A program made the translations under genes and the position numbers. The notes under the pieces were generated by a model. That model was not told where the DNA came from, ran no database searches, and was given only the letters and a program-made list of their open reading frames with translations. 38,342 nt of DNA from an uncultured Candidatus Saccharibacteria bacterium. Lineage in GTDB: Bacteria; Patescibacteriota; Saccharimonadia; Saccharimonadales; Saccharimonadaceae. How positions within the stretch are numbered: position 1 is the first letter of the stretch; every line of letters begins with the position of its first letter. Location: contig CAMNFE010000005.1 of assembly GCA_946537195.1 (NCBI GenBank), positions 1 through 38,342 on the forward strand. Direction: 5' to 3'. This document shows, piece after piece, positions 8,933-13,436 of this stretch.

Positions 8933-10135
8933 ATGGCAGAATTACGATGTCCAAAATGTGGCAAAACTTTTAAAGTCGACGATGATAGTTATGCAGATAT
9001 TCTAAATCAAGTACGCACGCACGAATTTAACGATGAAGTCGAAAAACAGGTTGCGGCCGCACTCGAAAAGGCTGATTCTGCAAACGAACTGGAGCTCGAA
9101 AAGGCCAAAAACGCTCAAACCAAAAAGATTGCCGAGCTAGAGGCTAAAATCAAACAGGCTGAAACCGATAAGGAACTAGCAATTACCAAGGCTTTGGCGC
9201 CAGTCGAAAAAGAGCTTGAAACCGCAAAAGCTGATTTGAAGACTAAGACCTCCGAGGCTAAACTTCGCGAAGAATCGCTTACGGCGCAAGTTAAACTCCG
9301 CGAGGCGGCCCTCAAAACTCAATACGAGGGTGCCTTAAAGCTCAAGGATGAAGAAATTGACCGCCTGAAAGATCTTAAATCCAAACTTAGTACTAAAATG
9401 GTTGGCGAAACGCTTGAGCAACATTGTCAAACCGAATTTAATCGTCTGCGTGCCACCGCTTTTAAAAATGCATATTTTGAAAAGGATAACGATGCGCGTA
9501 CTGGTAGTAAGGGCGATTATATTTATCGCGAAATGGACGAGCAGGGCAATGAAATTATCTCCATTATGTTTGAGATGAAAAACGAAAACGAAACTACCGC
9601 CACCAAGCATAAAAATGAGGACTTCTTTAAAGAACTCGATAAGGATCGCAAGGAAAAGGATTGTGAGTATGCTGTCCTGGTAACTTTGCTCGAGGCTGAT
9701 TCTGAATTGTATAACACGGGCATCGTTGATGTTAGTTATAAGTACGACAAAATGTATGTTATTCGCCCTCAATTCTTCATTCCGATGATTACATTACTGC
9801 GCAATGCTGCACTTAACTCGCTAAAATACAAGCAAGAATTAGCCGTGGTACGCAATCAGAATATCGATATTACGCATTTTGAAGAAAACATGGAAAATTT
9901 CAAGATGGCCTTTGCGCGCAATTATGAATTAGCTAGTAAAAAATTCAGTACTGCCATCGAGGAAATTGACAAGACTATTGCGCATTTGCAAAAGACAAAA
10001 GAAGCGCTACTCAGTTCCGAGAATAATCTACGTCTTGCCAACAATAAAGCTGAAGACCTTACAATTAAACGCCTTACTCGTGGTAATCCGACTATGGCGG
10101 AAAAATTTGCGGAGCTAAAAAAAGAGCGCTCGTAA
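8933..10135 (+). CDS. DUF2130 domain protein (coiled coil, N-terminal CxxC)
   Basis: CPKCGKTF N-terminus, long coiled coil, '[42 protein letters not shown]' typical of DUF2130. Confidence 0.85.
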
Positions 10136-10158
10136 ATATATTGAGCGCTCCTGGTTGA

Positions 10159-10524
10159 CTAGTCACGAATGCTCCTGATCTTACGATCAAGATCTGCTGC
10201 CGCCTTATAAAATGCTCTCTTTATGAGCAGTCCGCGCAGAATGCGGAGCGATACTAAGAAGAAGGCTATAGTGAAAGCCGTTCTTATAACAGGTGTCTCT
10301 GCCCAGTATGCTACTCCGCACAGGAATAATGCGCAAGAGTGCATAGTGATTTCTTTTAGTGATTTATCTTCGAGAAAGTACCCAGAGAGTACTATTATCG
10401 CCACTAAGGCCGCCGCATCATGAAACGACGGTTTCAGTAGTGACATCGCCAGTAAAGCGATTGACAGAACCACTAAAGACATCTGAGCGTATGCGCACGT
10501 TAATGCAATATTTGTTTTCCTCAT
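10159..10524 (-). CDS. Small multi-TM membrane protein (MRKT group, copy 1)
   Basis: MRKTNIALT start, SD aggagg, own promoter and structured leader; several TM segments. Confidence 0.7.
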   Translation of the reverse strand: MRKTNIALTCAYAQMSLVVLSIALLAMSLLKPSFHDAAALVAIIVLSGYFLEDKSLKEITMHSCALFLCGVAYWAETPVIRTAFTIAFFLVSLRILRGLLIKRAFYKAAADLDRKIRSIRD

Positions 10525-10693
10525 AACTTACCTCCTGAGAAAAACGGCCGCCCATACTTGGGCTGGCATCAATGGGTCGAGGCTCATTCAAGCCTAGTTT
10601 TAGTTCCCCTATACTAAAACTAGACTCGAATCTTTCTGAGAAAAACTTAACTAGTCATTTTTGAAGGGTGCTATAAGATAATAAATACCTTAT
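10525..10693 (-). ncRNA. Structured 5' leader L1 of the MRKT gene 10159-10524
   Basis: ATTCGAG/CTTGAAT + CTAGTTTTAGT/ACTAAAACTAG hairpin with ATAGGGGA loop; terminator-like hairpin 10547-10567; U-tract; SD. Shared with L2 and L3. Confidence 0.7.
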
Positions 10694-10699
10694 GCTTTA

Positions 10700-10728
10700 A
10701 TTATACCACAAAACATTAAAAAAGTCAA
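10700..10728 (-). promoter_or_regulatory. Promoter of the L1 transcript
   Basis: Minus strand TTGACT-17 nt-TATAAT, extended TGG. Confidence 0.8.
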
Positions 10729-10784
10729 TATAGATATTAATAAATTGTGCGAAATGAACTAATGTTTGAGCTATGAGACTTCAT

Positions 10785-10807
10785 TAAAAAGCCGGCATTA
10801 TGCCGGC
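10785..10807 (-). terminator. Terminator of CDS 10830-11144
   Basis: gccggcat/atgccggc palindrome with ttttt on the minus strand. Confidence 0.75.
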
Positions 10808-10829
10808 GTAAGATGGTATTTTGGAAAAT

Positions 10830-11144
10830 CTAACTGTCCATAATTCGATACAGCACCCATCCGGTGGCTAGGGGAACGCTTGCTAGAAATGCGACTATCC
10901 AGAAGCCGTGCATATTGAAGGCGTTTTCCCAAATCAGGGCCTGAATTAGGACTACTAGCAATTCGCTCGTAAAACATAAATCTTTTTCGCCATTAGCGTT
11001 AGTCGTCAACATGCAAACGAATAACAATAATGGAAACAATATCACCGTCGTGATAGTTTTGAGCGGTGAAATGTTCGCAAAAAGCGTCACGAGCAATGCT
11101 ATCTGAAAAATCAGCACCAAAATACTCTCGAAAGTTTTTCTCAT
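10830..11144 (-). CDS. Small multi-TM membrane protein (MRKT group, copy 2)
   Basis: MRKTFESIL start, SD ggaggtgg, own promoter and leader. Confidence 0.7.
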   Translation of the reverse strand: MRKTFESILVLIFQIALLVTLFANISPLKTITTVILFPLLLFVCMLTTNANGEKDLCFTSELLVVLIQALIWENAFNMHGFWIVAFLASVPLATGWVLYRIMDS

Positions 11145-11276
11145 AACCCCACCTCCAAGAGAAAAACATTAAGGCGGAAATGCGATTCGAGCTAAAATCT
11201 GACTCCCCTGTGCGGGATTTCGTCTCGAATATTGCGCATCTCCTCTAACTTAAATGAACTAGTAAATCTTTACTCT
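11145..11276 (-). ncRNA. Structured 5' leader L2 of the MRKT gene 10830-11144
   Basis: ATTCGAG/CTCGAAT stem (11224-11230 with 11185-11191), loop ACAGGGGAG, GTTTTTCTC before SD. Confidence 0.6.
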
Positions 11277-11282
11277 GTTTCT

Positions 11283-11311
11283 ATTATGTCACGTTGGGCG
11301 GAATTAGTCAA
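11283..11311 (-). promoter_or_regulatory. Promoter of the L2 transcript
   Basis: Minus strand TTGACT-17 nt-CATAAT. Confidence 0.7.
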
Positions 11312-11322
11312 ATGGCTTACGC

Positions 11323-11352
11323 TTGAAAAATTAACATAAGCAGTGTTAGAAT
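11323..11352 (+). promoter_or_regulatory. Promoter of CDS 11361-11603
   Basis: TTGAAA-18 nt-TAGAAT; predicted TSS at or near the ATG. Confidence 0.5.
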
Positions 11353-11360
11353 TTACCCAG

Positions 11361-11603
11361 ATGTATAACAATGAGAAAACGCCGGGCTTCGTAGGGAAAG
11401 TATTGCATACTTTTTTCATCCTTTTCGTCATTGTTATGATAGGGATTCTGGGCCTTACTATTGTTAAGCATATTGACGGTGACACTTTGACCGTAACTTC
11501 CGGAACGACTGAAAGTGAAGAATGTGGCGATGAACAAGCTCAGGAGGCTGCTCGCAAAGCCGGTCTTAAAGTGCCCGTAAAGTGTCAAAAGAAATCTGAA
11601 TAA
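11361..11603 (+). CDS. Small single-TM hypothetical protein
   Basis: MYNNEKTPGFVGK then TM helix; -10 TAGAAT 8 nt before ATG; terminator after stop. Confidence 0.55.
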   Translation: MYNNEKTPGFVGKVLHTFFILFVIVMIGILGLTIVKHIDGDTLTVTSGTTESEECGDEQAQEAARKAGLKVPVKCQKKSE

Positions 11604-11627
11604 AAGGCACCCATGCGGGTGCCTTAG
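11600..11627. terminator. Hairpin between convergent genes (possibly bidirectional terminator)
   Basis: ggcaccc-atgc-gggtgcc; the T-tract (ttttatt) is on the minus-strand side. Confidence 0.55.
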
Positions 11628-11635
11628 TCGACTAG

Positions 11636-12019
11636 TTACAAGTCGCTACTTTTTTCTTGATTCTCGGTCTTTTGAGAGTACCTCGTATAAAGCGTAAGAG
11701 CTCCCGCAAACGGCCACCAGATTAATACCCAAAAAGCTGCAGCTCTCCAGTCTTTGGAGTGAGTGACCATTATTAGTATTATCAATGATAGTCGAAACAG
11801 TCCTCGCCTTCTGTCGAGCTCAAGCCGGCTGTCTGCGGAGTAGCATCCAAAAAGAGCATATGTGGTCAGCATTAGCAGAGAATGTGTAATTGATACAATC
11901 ATTGCTCTACTATTAAACCTGGAACAATAAGCCTCATACGTTACGCACGCCATTGAGAACCAGGTTATTAGCCAGAGCAATACTGCTGCTATACTACGGT
12001 TGCGTTTTGTTTTTCTCAT
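11636..12019 (-). CDS. Small multi-TM membrane protein (MRKT group, copy 3)
   Basis: MRKTKRNRS start, SD ggaggg, own promoter and leader. Confidence 0.7.
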   Translation of the reverse strand: MRKTKRNRSIAAVLLWLITWFSMACVTYEAYCSRFNSRAMIVSITHSLLMLTTYALFGCYSADSRLELDRRRGLFRLSLIILIMVTHSKDWRAAAFWVLIWWPFAGALTLYTRYSQKTENQEKSSDL

Positions 12020-12167
12020 TTAATCCCTCCATTCTGAGAAAAAACTGCTGCCTAAACTTAGGCTAGCATTGACGCGTAGGGCTCTTTCGAGCCGGGTTTT
12101 CGCTCCCCTCTGCAAAAACCAGGCTCGAATATAACTAATAAAAAAGATCGCCAATTCAAAGATTGGT
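12020..12167 (-). ncRNA. Structured 5' leader L3 of the MRKT gene 11636-12019
   Basis: TTCGAGCC/GGCTCGAA + GGTTTTTGC/GCGAAAACC hairpin with AGAGGGGA loop; bulged terminator-like hairpin 12046-12068 + U6. Confidence 0.7.
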
Positions 12168-12173
12168 CTGCTT

Positions 12174-12202
12174 ATTATAAAATATAAGCTGAAGCAATGC
12201 AA
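12174..12202 (-). promoter_or_regulatory. Promoter of the L3 transcript
   Basis: Minus strand TTGCAT-17 nt-TATAAT. Confidence 0.65.
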
Positions 12203-12204
12203 TA

Positions 12205-12236
12205 AAAAGAACCCCCGTATTGGAGGTTCTTTTTTG
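12205..12236 (-). terminator. nusA terminator
   Basis: aagaacctcc-aatac-gggggttctt + tttatt on the minus strand. Confidence 0.8.
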
Positions 12237-12241
12237 TCGAA

Positions 12242-13393
12242 TTATTCTTCTTCGGAATTTTCTTCTTCTTCGCTTTCTTCCACTGCGGAAAGCAAGGAAT
12301 CTTCGACGTTCTTCTTCTTCTTTTTCTCTGGAGCTTTGGCAATTTCGACATCAATATCGTAGCCAGTAAGCTTGGAAGCGAGGCGAACGTTCTGTCCTAC
12401 GCGACCAATCGCAATTGATTGTTGTTCCTTTGAGACATAAACAGTCGCATGATTAACCATTTCGCCTTTCTTATTTTCGACCTTGTCGGTCTCAACCTTT
12501 TGAATTTCGGCTGGACTCAGAGCTTCGCGAATATATTCGGAAATATTATCGCTCCAGTTGACGATATCGATTTTTTCACGATCGCCGATTTCATTCATGA
12601 CGGCTTGGACGCGAACGCCACGGCCACCTACAAAGGTACCAACTGGGTCGATGCCTGGCATAGTTGCGGCGACAGCAATCTTGGTGCGACGACCAGCTTC
12701 GCGGGCAATCGCTTTGATTTCGACGGAACCGTTTTCAATTTCAGGGACTTCTTGACGGAAGAGATATTCGATAAATTCTGCACAACCACGGCTAAGAATT
12801 AATTGTGCGCCACGTTCATTGCGTTCGATTTCCTTGATATAAACCTTCACACGGGAGCCAACGGCATAATATTCGCCTTCGATTTGTTCACTCTTTGGCA
12901 TGATGCCGGTAGCTTTACCGAGGTCGATGCGAACAAGCTTTGGCTCAACGCGCACGATTGTGCCATTTACGACGCTGCCGATTTTGTCTTCGAACATTGT
13001 TAGAACTGCGTCGCGTTCAGCCTCGCGGAGGCGTTGAATTACAACCTGCTTTGCAGTCTGGGAAGCGACACGACCAAAACTTTCAACTTTGTGCTTTTCT
13101 TCAACGGTGTCGCCGACTTTCTTTTTCTTATCTTTAACTTCGGATATTGGAATTTCAGTAGCTGGGTTATAGGCCACATCGTCTTCGATAATTTCGCGCA
13201 CGATAAAAATGTCTGCTTGACCGGTATTAAGGTCGAGTTCGCAGCGGACGTCCATGTCTTTGTCGCCGTTATCTTTGCGCCAAGCTGCCGCAATTGCCTG
13301 TTGGATCACATCAATTACAGTCTCTTTTGGTAGGTTCTTTTCTTCAGCAATAATGTCGACCATTGCGACCATTTGCTTTAAATCTAGATCCAT
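12242..13393 (-). CDS. nusA: Transcription termination/antitermination factor NusA
   Basis: 'MVDIIAEEKNLPKETVIDVIQQAIAAAWRK' N-domain, S1 and KH regions ('MPGIDPVGTFVGGRGVRVQAVMNEIGDREKIDIV'), acidic C-terminus. Confidence 0.95.
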   Translation of the reverse strand: MDLDLKQMVAMVDIIAEEKNLPKETVIDVIQQAIAAAWRKDNGDKDMDVRCELDLNTGQADIFIVREIIEDDVAYNPATEIPISEVKDKKKKVGDTVEEKHKVESFGRVASQTAKQVVIQRLREAERDAVLTMFEDKIGSVVNGTIVRVEPKLVRIDLGKATGIMPKSEQIEGEYYAVGSRVKVYIKEIERNERGAQLILSRGCAEFIEYLFRQEVPEIENGSVEIKAIAREAGRRTKIAVAATMPGIDPVGTFVGGRGVRVQAVMNEIGDREKIDIVNWSDNISEYIREALSPAEIQKVETDKVENKKGEMVNHATVYVSKEQQSIAIGRVGQNVRLASKLTGYDIDVEIAKAPEKKKKKNVEDSLLSAVEESEEEENSEEE

Positions 13394-13418
13394 ATTTTCC
13401 TTTCTTTCATTAATAAAA

Positions 13419-13436
13419 CCGCCTCTTTCGAGCCGG
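13419..13436 (-). promoter_or_regulatory. Attenuator-like hairpin in the nusA leader
   Basis: Minus strand CCGGCTC-GAAA-GAGGCGG (one G-G mismatch) followed by TTTTATT. Confidence 0.5.

Follow-up and report, generated by a model that had tools for sequence, protein, structure and literature searches.

Why do three small genes keep the same first codons when the rest of their sequence has strongly diverged? L1, L2 and L3 lie on the minus strand of the window, the whole 38,342-nucleotide stretch of DNA from a rumen-type Candidatus Saccharibacteria genome analysed here, and all three begin with MRKT. An earlier note had proposed that a tract next to the Shine-Dalgarno sequence (SD) of each gene pairs with its start codon and codons 2-4, and that MRKT is conserved because these codons belong to an RNA switch rather than for protein function. 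Judged by comparison of sequences, the leader of L1-L3 is a previously undescribed structured RNA, and the pairing proposed earlier is the end of this larger RNA.

Pairing at the starts of L1, L2 and L3

The three local pairings exist as they had been described. In L1, GTTTTTCTC (10537-10545, minus strand) pairs with GAGGAAAAC (10514-10522, minus strand) over 9 bp with one G-U pair; in L2, the same tract (11159-11167, minus strand) forms a perfect 9-bp helix with GAGAAAAAC (11134-11142); and in L3, the helix of GTTTTTTCTC (12036-12045, minus strand) and 12009-12017 has one extra U. Folding of short fragments, a check that the note had called for, gives z-scores of -3.0 (L1), -2.2 (L2) and -1.5 (L3), and the local hairpins that cover the starts have energies of -7 to -11 kcal/mol. 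Taken alone, however, the local pairing is weak evidence and not rare for a single gene: an equally stable local helix is found in 7 (L1), 18 (L2) and 23 (L3) of 440 background genes from the window locus and related loci, corresponding to 1.6%, 4.1% and 5.2%. Moreover, the three leaders are paralogous and thus do not represent three independent events.

The motifs themselves are concentrated at these genes. The window has three occurrences of ATGAGRAAAAC (0.10 expected), each of them at the start of L1, L2 or L3. For GTTTTTCTC and its complement there are five in all against 0.69 expected (0 of 100 shuffles), every one in the leaders or starts of the three genes. Inside the pairing, the copies differ solely in an AGG versus an AGA codon, which exchanges a G-U for an A-U pair. 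Nucleotide identity among L1-L3 stops exactly at the limit of the pairing, which fits an RNA constraint on MRKT and is no proof of it; retention of MRKT for the sake of RNA pairing is plausible, without being proven. Searches of the 44 other genomes of the genus for L1-L3 homologues and for MRKT proteins gave spurious matches only.

The earlier note overlooked a further copy of GTTTTTCTC, at 10638-10646 (minus strand), which lies 5' of the P1 hairpin of L1 (Table 1) and corresponds to the anti-start segment found across the leader family. L1 therefore has two tracts matching TGAGGAAAAC, whereas L2 and L3 have only the local one, and the SD-adjacent tract is seen only in the three window copies. 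In the full-length fold of L1, the start region is predicted to pair with the distal tract (AS1) at a probability of 0.72 and with the local tract at 0.14. For L3, the corresponding fold has the start masked by the local tract (0.65), whereas in that of L2 this tract is hardly used (0.01) and the SD pairs with a downstream ACTTTCGAGAG.

Table 1. Features of the three leader-plus-gene cassettes in the window.
Feature	Position	Strand	Remarks
L1 ORF	10159..10524	-	121 aa, begins MRKT, four predicted helices, no known family
L1 promoter TTGACT-17-TATAAT	10700..10728	-	11/12 consensus positions; type as in argS-locus leaders
L1 P0 hairpin	10673..10693	-	at predicted transcript start
L1 anti-start segment AS1, GTTTTTCTCA	10637..10646	-	5 nt before P1; pairs TGAGGAAAAC at 10514-10523, 10 bp, -13.9 kcal/mol
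L1 P1 hairpin, loop ATAGGGGA	10586..10631	-	R2 E 4.8e-12; covariation
L1 P2 hairpin GCCAGCCCAAGTATGGGCGGC	10547..10567	-	terminator-like with next U tract; -12.1 kcal/mol; covaries with L3 P2
L1 local tract GTTTTTCTC (AS2)	10537..10545	-	upstream arm in the earlier note
L1 SD AGGAGG (10531-10536), ATG (10522-10524), codons 2-4 through 10514	10514..10536	-	
L2 ORF	10830..11144	-	104 aa, MRKT, hydrophobic
L2 promoter TTGACT-17-CATAAT	11283..11311	-	
L2 P1 hairpin, loop ACAGGGGA	11185..11230	-	lengthened by flanks GGAGATGC and GCATTTCC; R2 E 8.9e-8
L2 local tract GTTTTTCTC	11159..11167	-	L2 without AS1 and P2
L3 ORF	11636..12019	-	127 aa, MRKT, four predicted helices
L3 promoter TTGCAT-17-TATAAT	12174..12202	-	weak -35
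L3 P1 hairpin, loop AGAGGGGA	12085..12130	-	R2 E 5.7e-12
L3 P2 hairpin GCTAGCCTAAGTTTAGGCAGC	12047..12067	-	-8.8 kcal/mol
L3 local tract GTTTTTTCTC	12036..12045	-	

Structure and setting of the leader RNA

Each of the three genes is preceded by a sigma-70-like promoter of its own. From 5' to 3', the leaders of the family consist of a promoter, the P0 hairpin close to the predicted transcript start (10693 for L1, 11276 for L2 and 12167 for L3), in most of them a boxA-like motif, and then P1; transcript starts and many of the start codons are predicted positions. P1 is a strongly conserved 19-bp hairpin with an AGGGGA loop, in which 16 of 19 pairs show changes on both sides; 94.3% of cells are paired compared to 71% in shuffles, and its covariation is reached in 0 of 500. 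P0 folds with a mean z of -2.96 over 29 leaders, lying below -1 in 25 of them. The whole leaders of L1 and L3 fold far better than their shuffles (z -5.5 and -4.6), and that of L2 does not (z -0.9). In L1 and L3, a GC-rich P2 stands directly 5' of the U tract. At the gathering threshold, Rfam 15 finds only 5S rRNA in the window, and the best permissive matches in 9900-12300 are far below the cut-offs.

Among 45 genomes of the genus, a model built from the three window leaders matches in 18 and a P1 model built from 24 sequences in 27, the surveyed genomes being incomplete, while none of 349 genomes covering 60 further genera of the family matches the P1 model. The leader was also not found in viral contigs, plasmids or phages, with strict patterns in the viral search. 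In relatives, it is usually located shortly downstream of argS and directly before a small, fast-evolving ORF, followed by genes that we take, from sequence and gene order, to be homologues of mscL, orn, dnaG and rpoD; other copies occur elsewhere in the genomes, one of them just upstream of nusA. One leader in this survey (L010/L031, contig 9 of G012) is identical to a leader of G013; the G012 assembly has 5% contamination, and this is probably a contaminating contig.

For the source genome (86% complete), CM searches and one direct look gave four leaders. The fourth copy (L047, contig C2 of G000, approximately 41.0-41.46 kb), downstream of argS, has a different distal P1 and stands before a 132-aa acidic ORF starting MRG. 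Close relatives carry nusA, an 86-aa gene and a DUF2130 gene in this order and lack L1-L3; the simplest reading is therefore that the three cassettes were inserted, on either side of the 86-aa gene. The relatives of this NusA are from Candidatus Saccharibacteria MAGs, many of them from rumen or gut. ACTAGT palindromes lie near the cassette ends (window positions 10158, 10650, 11258, 11631 and 13495) and could possibly be an insertion trace; the window holds 11 of them against 5.2 expected, a number reached in 2 of 100 shuffles.

What do these leaders precede? L1-L3 are small hydrophobic proteins of 104-127 aa that are approximately 20% identical. A single-sequence AF2 model of L1 has four helices (pLDDT 71), as does the structure model of L3, which is of moderate to low confidence and finds no match in the PDB with Foldseek at E<=0.001. 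Neither the window ORFs nor the sampled ORFs of relatives have a significant match in Pfam, NCBIfam, PHROGs or PADLOC. In relatives, the ORFs mostly encode fast-evolving acidic proteins, and BLAST links 19 of these; with hydrophobic proteins in the window, acidic ones in relatives and no known families, the genes behind this one type of leader are thus unrelated orphans.

The anti-start segment across the genus

Directly before P1, on its 5' side, lies a segment with complementarity to the SD, the start codon or the first codons of the leader to which it belongs. We compared contiguous helices formed with the own and with permuted partners, near-duplicates being removed and phylogeny not modelled. 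Over 26 deduplicated leaders, the anti-start segment pairs with its own start region at a z of -7.1 (0 of 20,000 permutations), and over all 36 leaders at -7.3. Among the 26, the signal persists for the first 12 codons alone (z -5.7) and for the SD alone (z -3.2), and no own-specific signal is seen for the anti-start segment against codons 11-20 (z +0.8), the region after P1 (z 0.02) or P0 (z -1.0), nor for the post-P1 region against the start region. As these control segments are null, genome composition does not explain the pairing.

The pairing is kept even though the first codons are completely different among relatives. For instance, TTGTTTTATCTCTGCG pairs with TGTGGAGGTAAAACAA in L062, TTTGCAACATT with AATGTTGCAAA in L048, and ATGATTCTTT with AAAGAATCAT in L167, while L165 and L169 have an identical start region and differing anti-start segments that are both complementary to it. 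The energies of the long-range helices lie between -7 and -22 kcal/mol, and many of these helices are GC-rich; full-length folds place the start region in the anti-start helix with high probability in most leaders. The helix is weak or absent in L028-L030, L043, L173, L3 and L2. In L036, L048 and L154, it is codons 6-10 that pair, and pairing there may inhibit initiation only weakly. At the level of the family, the earlier idea that the start codons are parts of an RNA structure is strongly supported, with the qualification that the SD-adjacent hairpin on which it was built is only part of that structure, the family-type partner lying 5' of P1.

Probable masking of the start and its alternatives

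Cis-acting masking of the translation start by the leader, serving orphan genes, is the best-supported reading and, in our estimation, a fairly probable one. L1-L3 would be three inserted leader-plus-gene cassettes whose leader, a genus-restricted structured RNA, represses translation in cis. Pairing of anti-start segment and start would enclose P1 and P2 in a multibranch structure that keeps ribosomes off until it is opened, for which a protein, a small molecule, an RNA in trans or a transcription complex at the boxA-like motif are candidates. In the window copies, the second, SD-adjacent tract would owe its identical sequence to having this start region as its target too. A two-state form in which the anti-start segment is hidden in a hairpin of its own when the gene is on was considered and rejected (mean z 0.0 over 29 leaders).

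Several other readings account for part of these observations. Simple paralogy, in which leader, U tract and MRKT were recently copied together and the local complementarity of L1-L3 is chance, draws on the three paralogous copies and on the 1.6-5% of genes with an equally stable local helix. We nevertheless consider it improbable, as the ORFs and leaders have otherwise strongly diverged while the tract and ATGAGRAAAAC are kept, the L1 tract is identical at the family-type and the local position, and anti-start segment and start co-evolve across the family. A similarly low probability applies to a transcription attenuator, in which P2 and the U tract (GTTTTTCTC) would form an intrinsic terminator, with the start complementarity incidental or acting in trans from the terminated short RNA. 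P2 is indeed rich in GC, shows covariation between L1 and L3 and precedes a run of 5-6 T, but this combination of hairpin and U run is absent from L2, which has the U tract without P2, and from relatives, which have no U tract at this place and still keep the start complementarity, and the U run is short and C-interrupted; a mutually exclusive antiterminator is not seen, in line with the null result for the anti-start segment against the post-P1 region. The small size, hydrophobicity and masked starts of L1-L3 recall type I toxin mRNAs, in which the SD is sequestered in long leaders, and an antisense RNA would then be the antitoxin. This is very improbable: the proteins are larger, 104-127 aa with four helices, relatives encode acidic soluble proteins, PADLOC gives no match, and no antisense gene or antitoxin RNA was found, the leaders showing only weak promoter-like sites on the plus strand. 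An RNA thermometer, whose weak AU-rich start hairpin would melt with temperature, appears scarcely credible. The local hairpins would suit it in stability, and a weak hairpin holding a U tract close to the SD is also what fourU thermometers have, where the tract is paired to the SD; here, however, the tract pairs with the ATG and codons 2-4 and not with the SD, and belongs to a long-range system whose helices span -7 to -22 kcal/mol and are in many cases GC-rich, and P1 conservation would have no role.

In a Nus-factor leader, which we regard as unlikely, P0 and the boxA-like GNNCNUUN would recruit NusB/S10 as in rRNA operons or suhB, either as the main regulator or as a partner of the anti-start helix. 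Of 29 leaders, 25 have GNNCNUUN after P0, compared with 1.9 in shuffles, although the pattern was drawn from the same leaders; the motif's conserved positions are common to the boxA of the family's rRNA leaders (PWM score 4.07 versus 1.94, sd 0.65, 0 of 100), and the order of hairpin and then boxA is that of E. coli rRNA leaders. On the other hand, only the 5' half of boxA is present and its ACAATTT part is absent, L1 and L3 match the motif poorly, and the covarying anti-start helix is left unexplained. The E. coli suhB leader, through which translation is repressed, carries a boxA like that of rRNA leaders 6 nt from the SD (PMC5725501), whereas the motif described here lies approximately 100 nt or more away, and suhB has neither a conserved P1 nor a covarying anti-start helix. 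The likeness being partial, a suhB-like link to Nus factors is a lead and not a result.

Masking in cis also has known counterparts. Translational riboswitches and ribosomal-protein leaders combine a structured 5'UTR, a conserved hairpin and sequestration of the start site, all of which have a parallel here, with predicted sequestration of the SD or start by the covarying anti-start:start helix. The present leaders differ in preceding variable orphan genes instead of a pathway and in having no Rfam family match, and no defined alternative pairing for an ON state was found in them. On comparative grounds, they form a new family of RNA leaders whose functional kind is already known. More tentatively, and with some doubt on our side, they may represent a genus-specific class of Saccharibacteria RNA in which P1 is a constant receptor hairpin, accompanied by P0 and the boxA-like motif as a signal for the transcription complex, and the anti-start segment evolves freely and is re-matched to each downstream gene, such that one signal serves unrelated, fast-changing orphan proteins in cassettes at argS, nusA and other loci. 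To our knowledge, few regulatory RNAs have been described in Patescibacteria, and a search of an open-access library found no paper joining Saccharibacteria with "structured RNA". The masking segment, re-tuned for each gene, is direct comparative evidence that RNA pairing can constrain a start and its first codons, and the leader would mark the fast-evolving orphan genes of these reduced-genome bacteria as a co-regulated group.

Finally, two further elements were observed near rRNA and nusA genes. The rRNA leaders of the family (L178-L208) carry, upstream of 16S, a highly conserved GNNCNTTRACAATTTRGTTGTGCAA, usually followed by CATCGTCAGT, which is probably the boxA region of Saccharibacteria. 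Just before nusA, at window positions 13410-13435 (minus strand), a CCGGCTCGAAAGAGGCGG hairpin followed by a T run resembles GGCTCGAAAGAGCC of the L3 leader, a resemblance that possibly reflects chance or autoregulation of nusA.
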